IMG/VR virus record: IMGVR_UViG_3300036766_000686
Location: 27,711 to 91,710 of that record
DNA: 64,000 nt
Direction: 5' to 3' (one strand)
Source: a virus
Positions 3,998 to 51,738 of the stretch are shown one piece after another (positions within the stretch are counted from its first letter, which is position 1; each line of letters starts with the position of its first letter). Below the pieces are notes generated by a model. It was not told where the DNA came from and searched no databases. It saw nothing but the letters and a program-made list of their open reading frames with translations. Both the position numbers and the translations under genes were made by a program.

Positions 3998-4247
3998 ATT
4001 CCTTCTCTTTCCTCAGTTGATTGCTTATCCTGAAATATAGCGTCCTCGATTTCTTCTTCCCCTTTGAATCCGAAAACGAAAACACCCCATTTTTGCGGGA
4101 CTTCACAGCATTCCCCGCGTAAACTTCATCAATAACCCTTCGCAACAACTCGTCCCCAATGTCTTTAGAACTCAGCCGCGCGCCACAGCAATTGCAATAC
4201 ATCCTAACGCTCGCGGAAATACGGGTGAGAGGTTTAACCTTACTCAT
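3981..4247 (-). CDS. Small zinc-finger protein, unknown function
   Basis: About 88 residues from the ATG at 4247, preceded by GAGG; a TTG at 4256 could add three residues. It overlaps the end of the polymerase gene (stop 4240) and the next gene downstream. A C-N-C-C-G-A motif near residue 18 could form half of a zinc site; the C-terminus is basic (K-G-K-K-K-S-R). This suggests a small nucleic-acid-binding protein, but nothing more specific can be said. Confidence 0.55.
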   Translation of the reverse strand: MSKVKPLTRISASVRMYCNCCGARLSSKDIGDELLRRVIDEVYAGNAVKSRKNGVFSFSDSKGKKKSRTLYFRISNQLRKEKEYGRDS

Positions 4248-7200
4248 ACGCCTCAACCTTTTCGTGCTTATCGAGTGACCACGCCCCTCCGTCTATCCCG
4301 TGTAAAATCGTCTTGATCAATGCTCCGTTTTTGATGCTAGGTTTCAACTCTCTCCACGAGGACGCGAAACACAAGACGCGCAAAAACTCGCCATTGCAAG
4401 CGAGCCCAAACCTGCCCATCGCACGCCCTTCTTTGTCAAAAAGTTCCGACACCCTCGCCACAACTCCTATCACCTTTGCCCTCTTGTCGCTCAGTCTTAC
4501 AACCCCCGCTCTCCCCAGTTTCTTATCCGCTCGATTATTCCACTCCCTCAAAGTCGCAGGGTGTTCGAGGAACAACTGCTCCGCATAGGACTTAATAGAC
4601 TTGTCGTCCATCAACTTTCGAATGTCCGCTAGATAGTTGATGTAAACATTATGCCACTCCGCAGACACGTCTCCGCAGACAAGCAACGGGACTCCATAAT
4701 CTATGACTGGGCGAAACTCCTCGTATAAGTTCCAATCGAGCTTCGCCCACAACGTCGTTCCGCTTGCGCCCTCCAGCAAGACCTTCAACCACTTTCGGTC
4801 CCACCCCTTGTGCTCTCTCTCCTTCTCAGTCCCGGGAATGTTTTCTGCCAACGTCGTGTCCCCGACAAGTCTTTCCTGAAAATCTTTCACAGCCCCAGCA
4901 AGGTAAACCGTTCCCGTCTCCGCAAACAACTCCTCCGATACATCGAATAAAGCTACCTTGACCTTTTCGTTGATGAATCCTTCAAGGTCCACGAGCGGGT
5001 GGGGCAACATGGCAATAGGATTTATTTCAGCGGCAACCGTCAAGCGTTCCCTCTCGGAATACTGAGGCGCGGAGTGAAGGCGCGCACCAAAAGCTTTAAC
5101 AAACTCCTCCTCTTTCCCTTTTGCCACGTAGGTCCAGAAGGCTTCGAAGTTCTCCACGACCCACTTGGGATTCACGAGCAGCGAATCCAGGGCTCCCGAC
5201 TTCGCCAACACGAGCACCGTTCTCTTTGTAACAGCCCTTCCCCTCCGTCGCAAAAAATCAACAAGGTCAGCGTAAGCGCCCCCCTTACCGCGCTCCTCAA
5301 CGATTGATTGCGCTCCAGCTTCTCCAACCCCTTTGATATGCAACAACGACCCGACAATGCACTCCCCATCTTTGTCGAGGGCAAAGCGGGCGCTGGACTT
5401 GTTGATATCGGGAAAGCGAACTGTGACTCCGTGCCTCTCCGCGTCCTTAGCGTATCGTCTAACCTGATCAAGGTCGGGTTCGTTCGCCAACAACGCCCAA
5501 TAGAACTCCAGCGCCCAATGACATTTCAAATACATGGTCCAATACGAGTGCAACGAATAGGAGACGGCATGGGAGTTATGAGAAACAAGCCCGTTAGCTA
5601 AGGTGAATAAATGATCTCCCCCAACTTCGATATCAACCACCGGTCGCACACCCGCGTCCTCCCAGCGTACAAGTCTCCGATAAGAGTAAGTCCGAAAGGC
5701 GGGTCCTTCAGTATTCGAAGCACAGGAAGTTCCCAAACTTTGCGCAAATTTCCGGATGTGGAAAAGCAGTCTATCGACAAACGAACCAAAGATTTTTTTT
5801 GTTTTATTTTGATCCAACGGTCTAAAGCATCGTCCCTCTCTGCTGTTATCTGAAAACGATCTTCTCCCCATAAAGGTTGGAAATGGTGAAGCCCATCTAC
5901 CTCGATTAAAAAAGGGCCAACGAAATCTACTTGCCGAACCATTGTTCCTATCCGTATTTGGACATTTCTCTTGAAGGTTGATTGATCCAACAAGCTCCAA
6001 ATTTTTTCTTCCATATGAGAAACCGTCTTCCGTCTTATTTCTCCCGTCGCCATTCGTGCCGACAGCCGTCTCCCTATCTCTTGAATTTTTTCCGGGTTTC
6101 TCGTCCGCCACTCTTTTAGGCGCCGCGACCGAGCTTCCAAAATGTCTTGTCGAGAAGAGGTTTTTTTCGCCGTTAGTCTCGCCCACTCGATTATCTTGGC
6201 CCTCTCGGCAGGATCGGCCCACCTCTTGCGACAGTTCTCCGCTCGAATATTCAACTTCACTTGTTGGCATACCGTACAGTGTTTTAAGTGCTCGGTCTTT
6301 TGCGACCTCACTTGAAAACTCTGGCCGCAAAGTGTCTTCCATCCTCCGAACTTTCGTTTCATCGACAAGCAATCCGGACACGTCCGCTGATGGTCGATAA
6401 CTTTTTTCATTCCTCGAAGTTCCTGCCCACACCTCGTCTTGTAGAACACACAAGCCTTCCTCAATAATTTCTCTGGTGCTGCATATCCCTCGTTCGGTTT
6501 GCCATCTGTGCCCGAGAGTGCATACCGTTGTTGAACCATCATCAAACTCCAACCTAACCGTTGGCCTGTATTCAATCGGCCAAATATGAATTACTTTTTG
6601 AGTTGTAGGTTTGCCGTTTAAGAACCCAAATATCTTGTCGCCAGCACGTAACTGCCCGATCTCCTTCTCTCCTTCAACCGTAGCGACTTTTTCGGATATG
6701 TCAATACACTTGTTGAAACCGTATCGTCCGAATTTCACAATGGCATCCCACAACTCGTTTCCCACATGCGCGCTCATATCGGGGGTTCGCTTCGCGCAAC
6801 CATCAAGAAACATCTTGCGAAAATCCTCGATTGCGGCGGCGCCTTCGGACTTGCCGATCTTCTTCCTCAATCTATCAGCTTCCTCAGCAGAGAACCCCGC
6901 TACGTCCGTTGCAATCTTGATCACCTGCTCTTGGAATATCAGCAGCCCGAAAGTTTCCTTCGTAATTGCTCCAACTTTGGGGTGGAATAGTTGCTCCTCT
7001 GTGCGCTCAGGCCTCTCTTGTCGAAGTTTGTACTCCGTAGCGAAATCTTTGGCGCCGGGGCGATTTACTGCGTTTAAGTTCACCACATCGTTAAAGCCCT
7101 TGAACGTAAGCCCCAAGGAACAACGGTGAGCGGACGAACTATCAAACTGAAATACTCCTACGAAATCGTGTCCCGTGAACGCTTCTAGCGTCTTGGGATC

Positions 7201-9111
7201 GTCAAGAGGAATACCGTATAACGCGAACGCGGGGGAGACTTGTTTGATGGCTTGCTCGGCTTCGCTCAGTACCGTCACCGTACGGGAGGATAAGACGTCT
7301 ATCTTAATGAGCCCCAACCCTTCAATGCCTTCCATGTCAAACGCCGTTACCACTCCCTTGTTACGGACCTCGATCGGACAGGTATTAACGATAGGCTCTG
7401 GCGCAACAACAACCCCCGCCGCATGAACGCCAAAGGATTTCGTAAGTCCCTCCAGCGCCACAGCGTGTGCAACCACAGAAGGATTTTCCGCGGCGAACTT
7501 CTTAAAAATGTCCTTGTCTTTTAGCGCCTTCTCGATTGCTCCTCGATCGTCTTGCGGCTCGATAGCGGAGGCGGCAATCGAGACGGACTGGTAAGGAACG
7601 TCAAAAACGCGCGCAACGTCTCGCAATACCGCCTTGCCGTTCATCCTGCCGAGGGTCCCGATCAACGCAACTTTTTCCTCTCCGTACTTCTCCTTCAAAT
7701 ATTCAACGATCTCTCCGCGCCTGTCCGCACTAAAATCAATGTCACAGTCAGGCATGTTGATACGCCCCGGGGAGATAAATCGTTCAAACATCAAGTCAAA
7801 TACGATCGGGTCAACGTCGGTTATCCCGAGTAAATACGAAATGAGGGACCCCGCCGCGCTTCCTCGTCCCGGACCTTTTGCTATCCCATGCTCCCGCGCC
7901 CACCTACATACGTCGTATAAGATCAAGAAGTAATCCACGAATCCGTATTTACCCAGCACCTTCAACTCCCGCGCCACTCGCGCGGTATAACTATCGAACT
8001 GAGCAGAGGGCAGCTTGTCGAGCCCGCGCGCCCTTATCCCCTCCCCCGCTAAGTTTATCAAATACTCAGCAGAGGATAAGAAGGGAGGAGGCAAGGATAC
8101 ATGAGGTAATCGAGCTTTCAAAGGATCAATAACTATTCGCGCGCTACACCTTTCGGCAAGTTCCACAGTATTGCGCAACGATTGTTCCACTAAGTGCTCA
8201 GGAATGTGATGGTGATACTCTGAAAACCCATGCCGCATTTCCTCAGCGGACTTGAGGAAATACTGTGTGCCATCGAATGTAAAGCGATCGTCCGTTGCCA
8301 TCGTCGCCTTCGTGCCTATCGCCAACATGACCTCGTGGTGCGCCGCGTCTTGCTCCCGCAAGTAATGAGCGTCTTGAGTTGCTAACAGTTTGCACTTCCC
8401 GCCCGTCAGTGCCAGACAATCCAACGCGAACTGATTTACCCGTTGTTGCCTTGCCTCGCGTAAATCGTGAGGCATGATTTCAAGGTAAAGGTTCTCCCCG
8501 AAGGTATCGTAAAGCATGGAAAACGCTAAGTCCAAATCTTGTGATCTTTTCTCAATCAACGCTCCATTGATCACCGATCCCGCGCACCCCGTTCCCACAG
8601 CAAGCCCTTTGCTCATAGAGCATAGGAACTGTAAATCTATTCTAGGTTTATAATAGAATCCTTCAAGCCACGCCTTGCTCGATAGTGCATACAAGTTCCT
8701 AAGCCCTTCGTCGTCCAGAGCCCACACCGTCAAGTGTTCAACGCGCCTGATGCCCTTCTCCTTTTCTATCTTCTTAATCTCCTCGCGTGTTCTCTTGCGC
8801 TTACCGGAGAAATCAGGATTTACAACGAATAGCTCCCCGCTCGTTTCTTCTTCGTATTTTTCAGCGTCCTCAAGTCCCCGCTGTTTCATGTCCTTGCCAA
8901 CGTAGAACTCGACGCCATAGACAGGCTTGACCCCATGCTTATTGCACTGAGCGGTCAACAGGTACGCCCCACGGATCGTTCCGTGATCAGTCAACGCAAT
9001 CGCGCCATCTCCTCGCTTCGCCGCAGCTTGAACATAGTCCTCGACACGGGCGCACCCGTCCAGCGCACTCATATCCGAATGAACGTGAAGGTGGACGAAC
9101 TCACCGCCCAT
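4240..9111 (-). CDS. dnaE: DNA polymerase III alpha subunit with an intein
   Basis: 1623 residues before splicing; removal of the 378-residue intein leaves about 1245, normal for a bacterial-type C-family polymerase. The N-terminus has a PHP domain (H-L-H-V-H-S-D). The palm carries G-P-G-R-G-S-A-A-G-S and the catalytic P-D-C-D-I-D-F, and the fingers carry Y-G-F-N-K/S-H-A. The C-terminal part contains the helix-hairpin-helix region (I-K-G-V-G-E-A) and an OB-like tail. I chose the ATG at 9111 over 9126 because GGAGGG lies 5 bases upstream and it overlaps the previous gene by only 11 bases. It is the replicative polymerase of the phage; no proofreading subunit is visible here. The intein interrupts the frame between K of FNK and S of SHA. 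Confidence 0.95.
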   Translation of the reverse strand: MGGEFVHLHVHSDMSALDGCARVEDYVQAAAKRGDGAIALTDHGTIRGAYLLTAQCNKHGVKPVYGVEFYVGKDMKQRGLEDAEKYEEETSGELFVVNPDFSGKRKRTREEIKKIEKEKGIRRVEHLTVWALDDEGLRNLYALSSKAWLEGFYYKPRIDLQFLCSMSKGLAVGTGCAGSVINGALIEKRSQDLDLAFSMLYDTFGENLYLEIMPHDLREARQQRVNQFALDCLALTGGKCKLLATQDAHYLREQDAAHHEVMLAIGTKATMATDDRFTFDGTQYFLKSAEEMRHGFSEYHHHIPEHLVEQSLRNTVELAERCSARIVIDPLKARLPHVSLPPPFLSSAEYLINLAGEGIRARGLDKLPSAQFDSYTARVARELKVLGKYGFVDYFLILYDVCRWAREHGIAKGPGRGSAAGSLISYLLGITDVDPIVFDLMFERFISPGRINMPDCDIDFSADRRGEIVEYLKEKYGEEKVALIGTLGRMNGKAVLRDVARVFDVPYQSVSIAASAIEPQDDRGAIEKALKDKDIFKKFAAENPSVVAHAVALEGLTKSFGVHAAGVVVAPEPIVNTCPIEVRNKGVVTAFDMEGIEGLGLIKIDVLSSRTVTVLSEAEQAIKQVSPAFALYGIPLDDPKTLEAFTGHDFVGVFQFDSSSAHRCSLGLTFKGFNDVVNLNAVNRPGAKDFATEYKLRQERPERTEEQLFHPKVGAITKETFGLLIFQEQVIKIATDVAGFSAEEADRLRKKIGKSEGAAAIEDFRKMFLDGCAKRTPDMSAHVGNELWDAIVKFGRYGFNKCIDISEKVATVEGEKEIGQLRAGDKIFGFLNGKPTTQKVIHIWPIEYRPTVRLEFDDGSTTVCTLGHRWQTERGICSTREIIEEGLCVLQDEVWAGTSRNEKSYRPSADVSGLLVDETKVRRMEDTLRPEFSSEVAKDRALKTLYGMPTSEVEYSSGELSQEVGRSCREGQDNRVGETNGEKNLFSTRHFGSSVAAPKRVADEKPGKNSRDRETAVGTNGDGRNKTEDGFSYGRKNLELVGSINLQEKCPNTDRNNGSASRFRWPFFNRGRWASPFPTFMGRRSFSDNSREGRCFRPLDQNKTKKIFGSFVDRLLFHIRKFAQSLGTSCASNTEGPAFRTYSYRRLVRWEDAGVRPVVDIEVGGDHLFTLANGLVSHNSHAVSYSLHSYWTMYLKCHWALEFYWALLANEPDLDQVRRYAKDAERHGVTVRFPDINKSSARFALDKDGECIVGSLLHIKGVGEAGAQSIVEERGKGGAYADLVDFLRRRGRAVTKRTVLVLAKSGALDSLLVNPKWVVENFEAFWTYVAKGKEEEFVKAFGARLHSAPQYSERERLTVAAEINPIAMLPHPLVDLEGFINEKVKVALFDVSEELFAETGTVYLAGAVKDFQERLVGDTTLAENIPGTEKEREHKGWDRKWLKVLLEGASGTTLWAKLDWNLYEEFRPVIDYGVPLLVCGDVSAEWHNVYINYLADIRKLMDDKSIKSYAEQLFLEHPATLREWNNRADKKLGRAGVVRLSDKRAKVIGVVARVSELFDKEGRAMGRFGLACNGEFLRVLCFASSWRELKPSIKNGALIKTILHGIDGGAWSLDKHEKVEAYE
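5575..6708 (-). other. DnaE intein (splicing domains only in frame)
   Basis: In the polymerase frame an intein runs from Cys1 (codon 6708-6706) to a terminal H-N (N codon 5577-5575) followed by Ser of the C-extein, 378 residues. Block A begins C-I-D-I-S-E-K and includes R-A-G-D-K-I; block B is T-V-C-T-L-G-H with the catalytic Thr and His. Block F is V-D-I-E-V-G-G-D-H-L-F and block G ends V-S-H-N. Between B and F the polymerase frame is a hydrophilic, Ser/Arg/Glu-rich stretch of about 260 residues with no LAGLIDADG or HNH motif. The same DNA in another frame encodes a homing endonuclease. The insertion site is three residues downstream of the classical cyanobacterial split DnaE site. Confidence 0.92.
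5598..6449 (-). CDS. Homing endonuclease nested out of frame inside the DnaE intein (zinc fingers + Vsr/DUF559-like nuclease)
   Basis: A same-strand frame shifted from the polymerase frame encodes about 283 residues. The frame is open from 6575, but I prefer the GTG at 6449 because GGAAGG lies 5 bases upstream and the first zinc-binding unit begins right there. The N-terminus has two C-G-x(n)-H-x(2-3)-C-x2-C units, then a basic helical region (K-R-W-A-D, R-R-L-K-E-W) typical of DNA-binding spacers. The C-terminal nuclease reads V-D-F-V-G-P-F-L-I-E-V-D-G-L-H-H, the PD-(D/E)XK/Vsr pattern. The gene lies wholly within intein bases not needed for splicing blocks A, B, F and G, except for its last residues, which overlap block F. 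The role would be cleavage of intein-free polymerase alleles. Dual coding for about 850 bases is unusual. Confidence 0.85.
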   Translation of the reverse strand: MFYKTRCGQELRGMKKVIDHQRTCPDCLSMKRKFGGWKTLCGQSFQVRSQKTEHLKHCTVCQQVKLNIRAENCRKRWADPAERAKIIEWARLTAKKTSSRQDILEARSRRLKEWRTRNPEKIQEIGRRLSARMATGEIRRKTVSHMEEKIWSLLDQSTFKRNVQIRIGTMVRQVDFVGPFLIEVDGLHHFQPLWGEDRFQITAERDDALDRWIKIKQKKSLVRLSIDCFSTSGNLRKVWELPVLRILKDPPFGLTLIGDLYAGRTRVCDRWLISKLGEIIYSP

Positions 9112-9916
9112 AATAACCCTCCGCAATCACGGCAAACGCCTTCCCGCACCTACGCGCCTCGTAAGCTGTAGACATATAAAGTCTAAGCGTTGTAAACCTC
9201 GCCTCCGCAATACGACAACGAAACGGGGGAACACAGTTGTTTAAGCGCTCAGCAATCTCGACACGCCAACGTCTTACCCCGATTATTCTTGTCATCGCCC
9301 CACCCTTCCAATCCTCGAACGTGCAAACAACGCGCGGGGTATGTTCAAGTCTTAGGACTTCACGAGGACGGGTGTCTATGCGATACAGCGACCCTTCGAT
9401 CGCCGCAACATATCTCTCCTCGCCCTTCTCCCCCAACACGTATGCCGCGGGGTGCGCAAGTTCAAGGCCGCTTAGGAAATGCTGGAATAGCTTTTCACCA
9501 CGCCTCTCCATGCGCTCTCGGGCAAAGCGCTCCATCATTTTCGAGCGTCCTCTATCCAATGTCGCCCTCGTCCGCTCCGCGTTTATTCTATCCACCCGCT
9601 CCTCATTCAACGGTCCGACAACGCCTTGCTTCCTCAAGCGCTCGACCCTACGCATCCAACTTTTTATCTGCCCTATCTCCCGCCTTCTGCTTACGAACCT
9701 CTCCGTTTCTATCTCGTTTAGTTTGCAATAAGTTCGGAAGCGTTCACATGCTGTCCGAAACTCACACCTTCCGACGTTGTTTCCTCGCGAAGGCAACCCG
9801 TGTATCGTGTTACGCTTGATGCCTTCGCACCTTTCCGCTCCGATGGCGAACGCGCCGAAGCATCGAGGAACCACGCGTGCGGATATTAACTTGTGTTTAC
9901 TTTTCTTATACTTCAC
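9101..9916 (-). CDS. Conserved-looking basic protein upstream of dnaE, function unknown
   Basis: 271 residues, strongly arginine-rich, with a central helical segment (R-R-R-E-I-G-Q-I-K-S-W) and several scattered cysteines. No motif I recognise. It overlaps the polymerase start by 11 bases and the gene before it by 11 bases, so it is co-translated with replication genes. A basic, helical protein here might be a nucleic-acid-binding replication accessory protein, but the sequence does not prove it. Confidence 0.6.
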   Translation of the reverse strand: MKYKKSKHKLISARVVPRCFGAFAIGAERCEGIKRNTIHGLPSRGNNVGRCEFRTACERFRTYCKLNEIETERFVSRRREIGQIKSWMRRVERLRKQGVVGPLNEERVDRINAERTRATLDRGRSKMMERFARERMERRGEKLFQHFLSGLELAHPAAYVLGEKGEERYVAAIEGSLYRIDTRPREVLRLEHTPRVVCTFEDWKGGAMTRIIGVRRWRVEIAERLNNCVPPFRCRIAEARFTTLRLYMSTAYEARRCGKAFAVIAEGYYGR

Positions 9917-46530: not shown

Positions 46531-49500
46531 TTAGCTGGCGATCGTTGCCACTCCTCCAATTGAGAAGCCTGTTAACTTTCCAGCCTTGACGTCACTCCAA
46601 ACCTTATCACTGGTAACATGGACTGTCATTATCCACGAACCTTTTTTGACCTTCTCGTTTCCCAACGCAAACTCAGCGGGGGCAACATAGGACTCCACAA
46701 GCTCGATTCCCAGATCGCCAAAGGCGCGGTGCATCAATCCTAATTGTGTGCCGTTTTGCCCCACCGGTTTATTATAATTCATTAAGAATTTGTGGGCGGC
46801 GCGTTCGATGGTCTCGGGCTCCTCGTAATCGTGTTGGGCATCAATGACATTCGGCTCCAGTACCACCCCAGTGACTAACCTCTTTTCTTGCCCGTCCGCT
46901 CCCTTCCGCAACTCGACACGATAGACAGGAACAAAAATTTCGAAATCATAACGTTTCTCCGCGCTTTGCACTTCGGGAGCCTCCTGAGACGGAGCCCACA
47001 ACCATTGGTTACTTTGCGCGTTGCGCGTCAAAGTATAAACGCCTTTAAGCTTCTTCCCGTGGAATCGCGCTTTGATGAATGTATCGGATTGGGAAAGTAT
47101 TTCCGCGCGTCCCCTGTCCACCGCGTCAACGAAAGAAGGCGTTTCTTTGGTCGGATTTAGATAGTGCCCCGGCTTGACCACGCCCTCTATGCCCATCGAA
47201 TCCCTATGTCCGTCATGGGAAACCATCGTTGAAATTTGCTCGTTGCTCAAAGGGTCTTGAGGCATTTCGAATACCAGCAGATCGCCTACGCCCAAGTCCA
47301 CCCTGATAAACCAACGCCTGCGCGAAGGACCGAGGCGTATCTGGATTGGCCCCCGCCAAGTTTGATCTTGCAATACGAACTCCGCGTCCAGCAAGGATTT
47401 CTGCGCCCGCTTGTAAGGAGCCTCGAAATCGAGCTTGACCTCGCCCTTCGCAATCGCGTCCACGAGTGCGTCACGCATTGCCAACGCTTCCTGCCCCCGC
47501 TTGTCCCAGTATTGAAAACCTTTAGGCACTTGAACGCGAACGGCTTTAGGAAGCGCCGAGTACCCGTCCGGGGGCATCCATTTTTTGTCCACCGCTTCTT
47601 TTCCCAACACGTAAGGGGTCGGGTCGTCGGGGTAGATTGCGAGCCACGCCGCTTCATCCCCCATACCTTGATCCTCGGACGGAGGCAAAACCACGTCGGC
47701 CTTTTTCAGCAACTCTTTGGCGCAATCTAAACAGAGTAAAGCCTTGTCACCTTCCGCCCACCCTATCGCTACCGTCGCTTCGGACTCGGGGTGGGTCTCA
47801 CAACACTCGCCTTTGTTCGCAGAGTTGAAGGCAAGCTCTCGGAAAAACATACGATAGTTAAGCGCTTTGCCGTGGAAGAAATACTCATGGAACCAAGACT
47901 TTTGCGCTCCATATTCTACCGTTCCTTGATCAAGAATCAAAAATACCCCGGGGTACTGTCGAGTGCCCCCGACAGGCGGGGGTTGGCCGGGCTGAGGGTC
48001 TTTCGTCTTCCCCTCGACGTCGATCCATGCGTAAGGTTCCGGGGCCTTACGTTCGCTTTGAATTTCAGCCCGTACCAATTTATCCGTGCCTCCTTTAGGT
48101 CGCGTCGCCCACTCGCCCGTCTTCCAGTTGATCTTTTGCTTTCCATCCTCAGCAATCCATCGCCTTGCGTCCGCAAGCGACAGAATAGGGCGATCAGGAT
48201 TGCCGGGAATCTGTGTGTTAAGTGTCCATCCGGCCAGCAAGTCCTTGGGGCGCATTTCGATCCTAAGGTCATTATGAACACTCGCGCCTCGAAAATGGTT
48301 TTGCACCACATAGCGATAAGCGCCGTCCTCGGGCGGAACCTCTAGGTACGGGTCTTGTTGCTTCGCCAAGCCCTTAGCAAGGTCGGGGTAGGAATGTTCA
48401 AGCTCCATAGCCACATCGTCCGATTCCCAACGTTGCTCAAAAGCCTCCTTGACCTTTCGTTTGTCTCGCTCAGATAGCGCTTCCCATAGCGTCTTAACCT
48501 TCTTGCGCCCTTCCGACCCTAAAAATGCCGCTACTGCGCCTGACCATTCATTGGGCGGGCCAGCTTCGACCAGAAGTTCCGCGACGGTACGAGACTTACG
48601 AACGCCTTGCCCCGTGGGGCGATACGATACGTTGCCCTTTACGTCCACGTCCTTTTCTTGCAACACAAGGTCGCGCCGAGCTTGTGTCACCACCTCGTCC
48701 ACAGTGTTCGCGCCCCCATGCCCTTCCGATAGAACGCGAGGGACCCACGCTGAAATGTCAATGCCTTGAGGTGAACGCGTGAGGTTAATCGTCTCGCCCT
48801 CTATTCTCAACAGATCTCCCATTTCCAAGTCGAGGGACGTGGTAAACGTGTCGCCCATCGGCACCACGTCTTGCTCTTTTACTTGAACTATCGTTGCAGG
48901 CTTCTCGCGCCCCGGAAGCACCCCGTATTGATAGGCCCACGCGCCTCCCGCTGTTTTTTTCTTGCCGAGAATAACCGCAGTAAATACCGTGGCGTTGTGG
49001 TACTTGATCTGATAGTCAGGGTGGGTAAGGGCGAGCAAGTACGGCGCGTCCACTTGTTTGCATACAACGCCCTCCGAGCCCGGGAGCGTTCGATACTCGC
49101 GGACAACACGTTCGAGGTCGCGCGTATTGTCTACAACAACGAACGGGGCGACGTTGAGGCAATAACGTAAATCAGGCGCTCCTTTGGTCCCTTGCTTGAC
49201 TCCGAGTTTCGACAGTAAGCCAAGGCGATAGGCCGCTTCCTTGACGTGAATGTCACCCTCCTTGCCGTACCACAGGACATCGTAGATATTGCACACGAGG
49301 TTGGAATCGTCTGGAGCGCCCGTTGAGTGAATGTACCCGCTGGCGACCTCGCGGGGCATGTGTTGCGATCCCTCCCACGCCTCGATCTCCATCGGTACAA
49401 CGAGCGGGTCAACAGGAAGAGCCAGCAACTCCTTCACAACGTTGGGAAGCCGATCGGTATTATCTGTTCCGTCCTCGGAGAAAATACGCACCTTCCCATC

Positions 49501-51738
49501 CCACTTGTGCGCTTGATGGTTGGAGTTGGAAACAAGTATCTCCCCAACAAAATAGTTGTGGTTGCCTTCGACCTCTATATCAAAGCGCCCTTTAGAACGA
49601 GAAAATGAAACTCGCCTCGACCATTTGACCTTACGAGGGATTATTCCTTCGTAAGGTTCTTCGGCATGTCTCCACCCTTGACCAATGACATTAAGTCCGG
49701 TTCCGCCTAACTTATACGCCATATCTTCGCAAAACCAAGGGGCGCATTTTTGCAGAATAAGTTTTGTACCCTTACTACTAAACGCCAAATATTCGTAACC
49801 GCGAGATAGATAGATTTTAACTTCAAATCCGAAACTACAAAAATAGTTTTTGATTAGCTTATTCTCTTTCGAAGAAAACCCTTCTGTATGAAGTAACAAC
49901 CTTGGAGACTTATTCCAAGCAATAGACCCGTCGTCCATAATCCAAGCAGCCCAAGAAACCGGGGACAATTTATACAGAAAATCTTTGGTGATCGTTTTTT
50001 TGAGTGCCCCGTCCGGATGTAGTTCTTCCCAGATTTCCAGTAATCCAACGTCGGAGCGCGAGTCCCACCTTACTCCGGGGTGCCCAAACTGAGATATCCT
50101 CGGCTTAATCTCGCCTCCTAAAACGCCAAGCAATCTCGATTTCCATTCCAAATACGCCTGTTGCTTTATCGAGTGAGAAATAGAGACATACGGAGACTGA
50201 GATTCTTTTTGACGAGGTAAAGACGTATCCCCCATTAAAGAACCACGCAAAAAATCCTCCCTTTCCTTTCCAAGAACACTTCCGCGAACACAAACAAGAT
50301 CGTTGGCTTTAATGTCGGATGCGTTTTGTTTTGTGCCTGATGCGGTGTAAATACCGTGATTGCCCGTACAGGTAAGCATCCGCCTTCTTCCGTTTTCGCC
50401 AGAGCATCCAAATGAGGTGTACTCATGGCACGAACCGTTAGTAAACCAATTTGTTACCGGCTTCCACTCAACTCTCTTTGTTTCCCAGTTATACGATTTA
50501 ACTTTTACTTTCAACCGAGCATTTACAATCTCCCCTATCGGCAACGAACCTCTGTTCGTTTCGATCTTTGTTCGATACGGAAAACACCCGTCATACTTTT
50601 TTTGAACTAAAGTCGGTAACCACTCGTCCTCGTTCTCCTCGAATAGCGTTATGAAGTTTTCGACGGTCTGAGGCTGATCGGGGTATTCGGGACGGTAGGG
50701 TTTCATCATTGGGAAAAACTTGCCCAGCGTGATCCCCTCGACCTTTCCTACGCTGAAATAACGAGACGCGAACGCCCCGTCCTCCTCGTCCAATTTTGCA
50801 ATCGCCATCTGTGTCAAGAATTCGTACCCCTTGCGGGAGTTCGCTTTGTAATACTCCCACAAGGATTGCAGGTACTTTTCCATCTCTCGAAAATTGAAGC
50901 GACGCCGATCCACTTCATTATCAAGATCAAGCTTCCATTGCTTCGCCAACTTTGAGACGGCTTCAGGAGCCTCACGACCACGCCCCACCGCGTACCCCGA
51001 GCAACGCGGAGGCATTCCTTCTGCTTTCGGCTCGCGGCTCAACATCACGCGCCCGTACCCGCCCGCGATAAAAATGGACGCGGCGTCGAAGGACTTGATC
51101 ACATCGAAATAGGGTAGAAACTTGCGCAGTCTCGAACCTACGCCTAAAAGGTGAATGTCGTTTAGAGGAGGAACCTTGGCCAACTTGTACCGCTCACTCA
51201 CGCGGTTCGCAATCGCGGTCCACTGCGCGGGGGTCATAAATTGAATCGTGTACCCCGCGGGCATTTTCTTTTCCAAATGCCAATCGCCCATCGGGGTTTT
51301 CTCCCCCGCGAGAAACCCCGCCCAACACAAGCGCCCCCCGTCCTTGTACCAAGACTGAGCGTGGGTATGTACCTTGAACCACATATGGTCAACGACGATC
51401 GGAGACAGACCTGATTCCTTCATCTTGAGGTAGTGGTTGACCGTGACCTTCGTCTCCAGAGGGTCGTCGAGGACGATATATTCATCAAACAATTCCTTAT
51501 GCTCGTTGAGCCATCGCACGTACCCGTCCAATGTCACCGAGCCCGGGTGGGCGATATTCGAGTGGGCGCCTGAATCGAGAATAAACTTGACCCCGTTCTT
51601 AACGCCTTTCTCGATTCCCTCCAGATACCCCGCGCCTCTGCGCGCGTAGGCGTAGGAAACGAGGATGTGCTTTGCACCTTCTTCCATCAAGAAGTGGATT
51701 CGGTCAGGGTTGTTGGCGACGTAATAACAGTTAAACAT
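46531..51738 (-). CDS. DpdA-like transglycosylase - ATP ligase (intein) - LigD phosphoesterase - XkdF protease fusion
   Basis: 1735 residues in one open frame (about 1381 after splicing). Residues 1-270 resemble the TGT/DpdA barrel: F-I-L-D-S-G-A-H-S, Y-I-V-L-D-D-P, H-L-L-G-V-G and a distal F-D-A-A-S segment. Residues about 340-384 plus 739-1050 are an ATP-dependent ligase: motif I K-K-Y-D-G, motif III P-M-E-I-E-A-W, motif IV E-G-V-V-C-K, motif V Y-Q-I-K-Y. Residues about 1130-1580 resemble the LigD 3'-phosphoesterase, with N-H-F-R-G-A-S-V-H-N-D-L-R-I-E and H-G-K-K-L-K-G-V-Y-T-L, interrupted by a Cys-rich insert (C-C-E-T-H, C-L-D-C). Residues about 1595-1735 match XkdF prohead protease (V-V-L-E-P-N-V-I-D-A-Q-H-D and G-F-S-I-G-G). 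Adjacent folE/queE/queD support DpdA. One polypeptide thus joins base exchange, nick sealing and head maturation. Confidence 0.8.
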   Translation of the reverse strand: MFNCYYVANNPDRIHFLMEEGAKHILVSYAYARRGAGYLEGIEKGVKNGVKFILDSGAHSNIAHPGSVTLDGYVRWLNEHKELFDEYIVLDDPLETKVTVNHYLKMKESGLSPIVVDHMWFKVHTHAQSWYKDGGRLCWAGFLAGEKTPMGDWHLEKKMPAGYTIQFMTPAQWTAIANRVSERYKLAKVPPLNDIHLLGVGSRLRKFLPYFDVIKSFDAASIFIAGGYGRVMLSREPKAEGMPPRCSGYAVGRGREAPEAVSKLAKQWKLDLDNEVDRRRFNFREMEKYLQSLWEYYKANSRKGYEFLTQMAIAKLDEEDGAFASRYFSVGKVEGITLGKFFPMMKPYRPEYPDQPQTVENFITLFEENEDEWLPTLVQKKYDGCFPYRTKIETNRGSLPIGEIVNARLKVKVKSYNWETKRVEWKPVTNWFTNGSCHEYTSFGCSGENGRRRMLTCTGNHGIYTASGTKQNASDIKANDLVCVRGSVLGKEREDFLRGSLMGDTSLPRQKESQSPYVSISHSIKQQAYLEWKSRLLGVLGGEIKPRISQFGHPGVRWDSRSDVGLLEIWEELHPDGALKKTITKDFLYKLSPVSWAAWIMDDGSIAWNKSPRLLLHTEGFSSKENKLIKNYFCSFGFEVKIYLSRGYEYLAFSSKGTKLILQKCAPWFCEDMAYKLGGTGLNVIGQGWRHAEEPYEGIIPRKVKWSRRVSFSRSKGRFDIEVEGNHNYFVGEILVSNSNHQAHKWDGKVRIFSEDGTDNTDRLPNVVKELLALPVDPLVVPMEIEAWEGSQHMPREVASGYIHSTGAPDDSNLVCNIYDVLWYGKEGDIHVKEAAYRLGLLSKLGVKQGTKGAPDLRYCLNVAPFVVVDNTRDLERVVREYRTLPGSEGVVCKQVDAPYLLALTHPDYQIKYHNATVFTAVILGKKKTAGGAWAYQYGVLPGREKPATIVQVKEQDVVPMGDTFTTSLDLEMGDLLRIEGETINLTRSPQGIDISAWVPRVLSEGHGGANTVDEVVTQARRDLVLQEKDVDVKGNVSYRPTGQGVRKSRTVAELLVEAGPPNEWSGAVAAFLGSEGRKKVKTLWEALSERDKRKVKEAFEQRWESDDVAMELEHSYPDLAKGLAKQQDPYLEVPPEDGAYRYVVQNHFRGASVHNDLRIEMRPKDLLAGWTLNTQIPGNPDRPILSLADARRWIAEDGKQKINWKTGEWATRPKGGTDKLVRAEIQSERKAPEPYAWIDVEGKTKDPQPGQPPPVGGTRQYPGVFLILDQGTVEYGAQKSWFHEYFFHGKALNYRMFFRELAFNSANKGECCETHPESEATVAIGWAEGDKALLCLDCAKELLKKADVVLPPSEDQGMGDEAAWLAIYPDDPTPYVLGKEAVDKKWMPPDGYSALPKAVRVQVPKGFQYWDKRGQEALAMRDALVDAIAKGEVKLDFEAPYKRAQKSLLDAEFVLQDQTWRGPIQIRLGPSRRRWFIRVDLGVGDLLVFEMPQDPLSNEQISTMVSHDGHRDSMGIEGVVKPGHYLNPTKETPSFVDAVDRGRAEILSQSDTFIKARFHGKKLKGVYTLTRNAQSNQWLWAPSQEAPEVQSAEKRYDFEIFVPVYRVELRKGADGQEKRLVTGVVLEPNVIDAQHDYEEPETIERAAHKFLMNYNKPVGQNGTQLGLMHRAFGDLGIELVESYVAPAEFALGNEKVKKGSWIMTVHVTSDKVWSDVKAGKLTGFSIGGVATIAS
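49525..50586 (-). other. Ligase intein with in-frame LAGLIDADG endonuclease
   Basis: 354 residues from Cys1 (codon 50586-50584), directly after K-K-Y-D-G of the ligase active site, to Asn (49527-49525) before Ser. Block A is C-F-P-Y-R-T-K-I-E-T; block B includes L-T-C-T-G-N-H-G-I-Y. The two LAGLIDADG helices are L-R-G-S-L-M-G-D-T and A-A-W-I-M-D-D-G-S. Block F/G is F-D-I-E-V-E-G-N-H-N-Y-F-V-G-E-I-L-V-S-N. The penultimate residue is Ser instead of the usual His, which some inteins tolerate. The ligase cannot form its active site until splicing occurs. Confidence 0.9.

Follow-up and report, generated by a model that had tools for sequence, protein, structure and literature searches.

A phage DnaE intein that appears to house its endonuclease as a separate gene in the +1 frame

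Fractured genes, reportedly described by Dassa et al. in 2009, are said to contain a split intein whose two halves flank a free-standing Vsr/EDxHD homing endonuclease. In phage lambda, Rz1 is nested in Rz as a +1-frame gene within a gene, with its own start. Published descriptions of inteins place the endonuclease domain at a conserved position within the Hint fold (PMC6801210, PMC8966425). The endonuclease family of interest here has been termed EDxHD/Vsr, and group II intron members with CapR-like zinc domains, which lie outside inteins, have the same motif type as the enzyme reported below (PMC12350094). Free-standing phage members, such as Bacillus phage BpSp gp188 and Staphylococcus phage PALS_2 gp156, likewise carry ExDGxxHF, a downstream Asp, and Cys/His repeats before the motif.

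Here, we analyzed a stretch of 64,000 nucleotides (the window), part of a 91.7 kb phage record. It is highly probable, in our judgment, that an apparently cis-splicing DnaE intein in this window encodes its mobility enzyme in a separate, +1-frame gene. Like fractured genes, the locus combines a phage DNA-replication gene, a Vsr-like nuclease with its own start between the Hint halves, and a gp41-1-related splicing domain. Unlike in fractured genes, the polymerase frame is unbroken, with IntN and IntC in one ORF that runs across the out-of-frame endonuclease gene and is purged of stops. The large in-frame LAGLIDADG and HNH inteins (bacterial same-site loci L024, L036, and others) share the DnaE site and hold their endonuclease information between blocks B and F, whereas the window endonuclease is a separate +1 gene of the EDxHD/Vsr type and the in-frame residues form an unconserved linker. 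The free-standing phage enzymes differ in lying outside inteins and are only 22–23% identical to the window nuclease. In contrast to Rz1/Rz, the outer frame is an insert that would be spliced out, and hence it only needs to stay open. No unbroken intein with an out-of-frame endonuclease gene was found in the searchable literature, which covered few subscription papers and did not include the 2009 fractured-gene paper. See Table 1 for the coordinates of all features.

Table 1. Positions of the dnaE-like gene, its intein, and the nested nuclease gene in the window
Feature	Position	Strand	Remarks
dnaE-like DNA polymerase III alpha ORF	4240..9126	minus	1628 aa, unbroken across intein; phrog_405 E 2.9e-267
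Intein in DnaE	5575..6708	minus	378 aa, inserted GFNK^ / ^SHAVSYS; frame open end to end
Hint splicing domain, N-terminal part	6445..6708	minus	Blocks A and B; Cys1, His67
Intein-frame linker over nuclease gene	5695..6444	minus	No stops; 70% polar plus Gly/Pro; predicted disordered
Hint splicing domain, C-terminal part	5575..5694	minus	Blocks F and G; Asp359, His366, terminal HN^S
Nuclease gene, +1 frame	5598..6449	minus	Best start GTG 6449, stop at 5598; 283 aa; zinc-finger plus EDxHD/Vsr-like nuclease
Shine-Dalgarno-like gaggaagg	6455..6462	minus	5 nt upstream of GTG; from sequence
First finger-like repeat, CGQELRGMKKVIDHQRTCPDC	6369..6431	minus	pLDDT 77–81
Second finger-like repeat, CGQSFQVRSQKTEHLKHCTVC	6267..6329	minus	Cys41, His54, Cys58 shared with L021 and L155
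EDxHD/Vsr-like catalytic domain	5763..6020	minus	Asp175, Glu183, Asp185, His189, Asp206, Arg223 invariant in nine relatives

The minus strand of the window (1110–63976) carries genes of a contractile-tailed phage, including those for a RecA-like protein, a helicase, tRNA-Met, tail sheath, tape measure, portal, and large terminase. The dnaE-like ORF has matches to the DNA_pol3_alpha, PHP, DNA_pol3_finger, and HHH_6 domains. It is continuous across the intein, and other homologs have no insertion at this site. Uninterrupted versions are common, as the rejoined flanks match 948 phage records, 834 of them over at least 80%. An earlier note on this DNA, made without database searches, had read intein blocks A, B, F, and G in an open polymerase frame, and the searches agree. 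The intein begins at FGRYGFNK^C and ends at SHN^SHAVSYS, its C-terminus is recognized by TIGR01443 (intein_Cterm) above the cut-off (18.1 vs 15.6 bits), and its splicing blocks, when joined, match the gp41-1 intein (PDB 6riz) with an E value of 5.9e-12. The residues that mark an intein (C1, His67, Asp359, His366, and HN^S) are all in place. A Pfam domain search of the intein frame found no endonuclease. We rejected a group I or group II intron, as an Rfam search of the window gives only a tRNA. From its residues and context, we infer that the window intein is a cis-splicing Hint element, although splicing itself is inferred. Elsewhere in the window (46531–51738, minus strand) is an odd fusion, a 1735-aa ORF with an ATP-dependent DNA ligase domain (742–901) and an XkdF-like head maturation protease at its C-terminus (1617–1732). 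Just before the ligase domain, this ORF has an ordinary in-frame LAGLIDADG intein-like region (396–738), a conventional intein in the same phage.

The second reading frame encodes the zinc-finger and Vsr-like nuclease of about 283 residues, with a GTG start and Shine-Dalgarno sequence, that the earlier note had proposed. The nuclease contains two C-G-x(n)-H-xxx-C finger-like repeats and the motif DFVGPFLIEVDGLHHF, which has the form E-x-D-G-x-x-H-F. Six related nested loci, including this one, are described below; their nucleases have one to three CG..H..C repeats each, as expected of a separate DNA-binding module. The E-x-D ... H ... D catalytic pattern is present, and the nuclease aligns with free-standing EDxHD/Vsr-type proteins of jumbo phages, in which Glu183, Asp185, His189, Asp206, and Arg223 are also found. 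Matches to family libraries are weak: DUF559 at E 0.077, below the Pfam cut-off, and phrog_559, an HNH endonuclease family, at 3.5e-5. The best PDB profile match, to AbaSI, is also weak (E 0.087), and an AlphaFold model built from two sequences is poor (pLDDT 51). With the catalytic domain below the Pfam cut-off and poor models, support for the fold is limited to weak matches, which is a weak point of the mechanism we propose for the window. Over its last ~30 codons, the nuclease gene runs into functional intein blocks, apparently as passive read-on; the conserved part of the nuclease seems to finish near G-x-L-Y, because fractured relatives stop just beyond it. On motif evidence, we infer an EDxHD/Vsr-type homing endonuclease; cleavage and homing are likewise inferred, and there are no cleavage data. 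The nested enzyme probably spreads the intein insert.

The arrangement is not confined to the window. A DNA pattern for the C-terminal junction of the DnaE intein returned 19 viral and more than 100 bacterial loci at the same site; most of those read were ordinary inteins with in-frame inserts, or mini-inteins, and the search yielded L021. A DNA motif scan for EDxHD added L155, and an alignment search added L200, L202, and L203. All six phage contigs, counting the window, have the same DnaE insertion site, the same nuclease family, the same +1 offset, and an intein frame without a stop. His67, Asp359, His366, and Asn378 are invariant across the six inteins. The DnaE exteins are 26–63% identical pairwise, mostly 26–39%, with only L202 and L203 close (63%). 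The nested arrangement is thus conserved and recurrent in phages, in at least six very different viruses of bacteria. The inteins of L200, L202, and L203 have unusual junction residues, starting with Thr (Thr1 of L200) or Ser and ending in SN rather than HN, which makes their splicing competence less sure. In L004 (1–1413), an IntC-dnaE fusion at this DnaE site shares its frame with a Vsr-like nuclease (ETHGDYWHANP); because the N-terminal half lies beyond the contig, an in-frame intein cannot be distinguished from a fused fractured gene.

The same contigs bear on whether the locus could be an assembly or sequencing artefact, or a chance ORF. All sources are IMG/VR metagenome contigs and no isolate was found. 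However, the same anatomy appears in six contigs from separate samples, which already refutes an artefact, and the window nuclease matches the L021 nuclease, on an independent contig, at 43% identity over 243 aa (E 9e-50). Each contig would have to contain two compensating errors, and we find this explanation scarcely credible. A relative with the endonuclease in frame, from which a single indel would give the present arrangement, had been named beforehand as a refuting observation; no such relative was found, and the nuclease is in the +1 frame, not the intein frame, in all six nested loci. A single indel or sequencing error is excluded because the six copies share both the +1 offset and a continuous intein frame.

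Searches beyond these loci returned little. Searching viral contigs with the nuclease or DnaE as a single query gave no relatives, tblastn against named phages found just weak free-standing nuclease relatives, and no nuclease relatives were found in plasmids or in 399 genomes from the phylum of a betaproteobacterial genome, the latter searched without a positive control. An alternative frame stays open across more than 70% of the length in just one of 110 further inteins from this site, L081, which has no nuclease motif. We rejected L042 as a nested case, as its nuclease motif occurs by chance in a 97-codon frame. The counts of nested and fractured loci are lower bounds, because the scans depend on motifs and covered only viral-contig, genome, and named-phage collections.

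The intein frame acquires a stop wherever T at the end of a nuclease codon is followed by a codon beginning with AA, AG, or GA. To estimate how many such stops to expect, we generated 20,000 synonymous recodings of each nuclease from the codon usage of the corresponding DnaE. The recoded window nuclease gave 13.0 intein-frame stops on average and never zero, where none is observed; the third frame over the gene holds 21 stops. For the five other nested loci, the expected numbers are 5.7, 11.1, 19.4, 28.3, and 19.7, again with none observed. Recoding gave a stop-free intein frame for L021 in 47 of 20,000 trials and for none of the other five loci. Across the six loci, T occupies the nuclease third position before AA, AG, or GA in 0 of 486 cases, compared with 348 of 1192 elsewhere. 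Together with the absence of stops, this is a footprint of selection for an open intein frame. It also bears on the reading of the locus as a fractured gene with a split intein, its halves made separately and the frame between them open by accident. We judge this very improbable, given zero stops against 5.7–28.3 expected in each of six lineages and not one stop-making T; the fractured relatives described below hold 17, 23, and 56 stops in the same region, and DnaE and intein form a single ORF in six of six nested loci.

Conservation shifts between the frames along the locus. Between the window and L021, conservation lies in the intein frame for the first 86 residues of the intein. In the nuclease core, the nuclease frame leads with 50% amino acid identity (intein frame, 18%; third frame, 15%), and nucleotide identity by nuclease codon position is 0.57/0.64/0.21. 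At block F, the intein frame leads again (53% vs 42%). Constraint thus passes from the intein frame in the N-terminal part to the nuclease frame in the core and back to the intein frame at block F. As judged from these comparisons, the +1 nuclease frame is under purifying selection, the absence of which would have counted against the nested gene. Intein-frame identity across the nuclease is 0.18, compared with 0.19 ± 0.02 in simulation, and all nested pairs lie near the level imposed by the nuclease, with L021/L202 somewhat above it (0.27 vs 0.21 ± 0.02). The linker is ~70% polar plus Gly/Pro, and a low-confidence model of the intein has strands at its two ends only. For these reasons, we regard the intein frame here as an open tether and not a second conserved protein: probably a disordered linker without conservation beyond the absence of stops. 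The suggestion that ~850 bases are dual coding holds in that both frames are open, but mostly not in the sense of two constrained proteins, as the intein frame is merely stop-free.

The same conservation argues about function. It is possible that the nuclease is not, or is no longer, the homing enzyme of this intein, having decayed or having other DNA as its target, such as that of rival phages. Phages commonly carry free-standing EDxHD relatives, and phage homing enzymes can hit rivals at other sites, as has been established for group I intron enzymes, e.g., in SPO1-like phages. We nevertheless consider this unlikely, as the catalytic residues are invariant in nine relatives, the nuclease frame is under purifying selection, and six of the nine members lie inside inteins at one DnaE site, with the other three in fractured dnaE genes at that site. 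A homing enzyme remains our preferred reading.

We also asked how the nuclease would be expressed. A promoter search found nothing convincing as an internal promoter on the minus strand. In L200, L202, and L203, a nuclease-frame stop lies 6–9 nt upstream of an ATG, from which internal translation starts are likely. Clear Shine-Dalgarno sequences are present in L202 (aggag) and L203 (aaggag), while L155 and L200 lack one, and the start sites of L021 and L155 are uncertain. The nuclease could instead be produced by +1 ribosomal frameshifting off dnaE, which would fuse it to the N-extein and IntN; in favor of this, every nested locus has the +1 offset, and two loci have no clear Shine-Dalgarno. 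This is quite improbable, as the nuclease frame is closed until just before a good ATG in those three relatives, the Shine-Dalgarno sequences of L202 and L203 are at the right distance, and gaggaagg precedes the GTG in the window. Internal initiation is thus the likely route, favored over a long fusion, and the GTG and gaggaagg of the window fit it, although initiation is inferred and there are no translation data. It is also reasonable, without expression data, that nesting decouples endonuclease expression from DnaE translation.

Three further loci, L204, L205, and L206, have a nuclease of the nested family at the same position in DnaE, but as a free gene with a dnaE-IntN ORF on one side and an IntC-dnaE ORF on the other. 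Here, dnaE is broken into two ORFs, and these are fractured genes. The halves are still in register, with 23, 56, and 17 intein-frame stops inside the nuclease, respectively, and the nuclease offset is +1 in L205 and +2 in L204 and L206. In a tree of the Hint domain, nested and fractured loci form one group apart from the in-frame same-site inteins (support 98/92). The nuclease tree groups the fractured three (99/98), while monophyly of the nested loci is weak (58/57). In L204 (6700–6860), several stops follow the IntC junction in the dnaE C-extein frame before the same frame resumes at 6860, reflecting a second insertion or decay in the fractured gene. The dnaE-IntN ORF of L205 (1362–5348) has a second, in-frame intein (GEGRG^C...HN^SVGGS), so that a conventional intein and a fractured one coexist in this polymerase gene. 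L020 and L142 also have dnaE fractured at this site, with a +1-frame Vsr-like enzyme (VECHGIYWHWHP) that is more distantly related.

Because L204–L206 share both nuclease family and insertion site with the nested loci, the nested form can be seen as the cis-splicing counterpart of the fractured genes, and it is plausible that it is an intermediate towards split inteins. We think that the nested form came before the fractured one, as passage from nested to fractured needs only new stops and a start for the C-terminal half, while the reverse removes a dozen or more stops; this is our view and is unproven by the tree. With only modest conviction, we lean towards a stable, undescribed class of phage inteins, with a +1-frame homing endonuclease gene in an intact cis-splicing intein from which stops have long been purged, that gave rise to the same-site fractured genes by stop gain. 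The main interpretation of the earlier note is supported, and recurrence, measurable stop avoidance, an otherwise free intein frame, and the fractured sister loci are added to it.

We propose the following mechanism. Ribosomes in the dnaE frame would read the nuclease DNA as a stop-free, disordered linker of ~250 residues, located where the Hint fold usually accommodates an endonuclease, between blocks B and F. The Hint halves would then fold and remove the intein, linker included. Other ribosomes would initiate internally, at the GTG in the window and at ATG in relatives, to make the zinc-finger EDxHD/Vsr-type endonuclease. This enzyme may cut intein-less dnaE at the conserved GFNK/SHA site, and repair would copy the intein and endonuclease together (homing). 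Three features would be under selection: the intein-frame Hint blocks, the +1-frame nuclease, and the lack of stops in the intein frame. Once the intein frame is no longer stop-free, the gene would have to become a fractured, split-intein gene.

These results touch on two open questions, namely how free-standing endonucleases enter inteins and how split inteins originate. The arrangement would show that an endonuclease gene can reside inside an intein while being neither in frame nor breaking the host gene. The fractured versions, with the same enzyme at the same site, make the passage between nested and fractured forms testable by adding or removing stops. Such inteins may also serve protein engineering, as phage inteins that tolerate linkers. 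As overlapping genes they would be unusual, with an outer frame that is discarded by splicing and so need only stay open.
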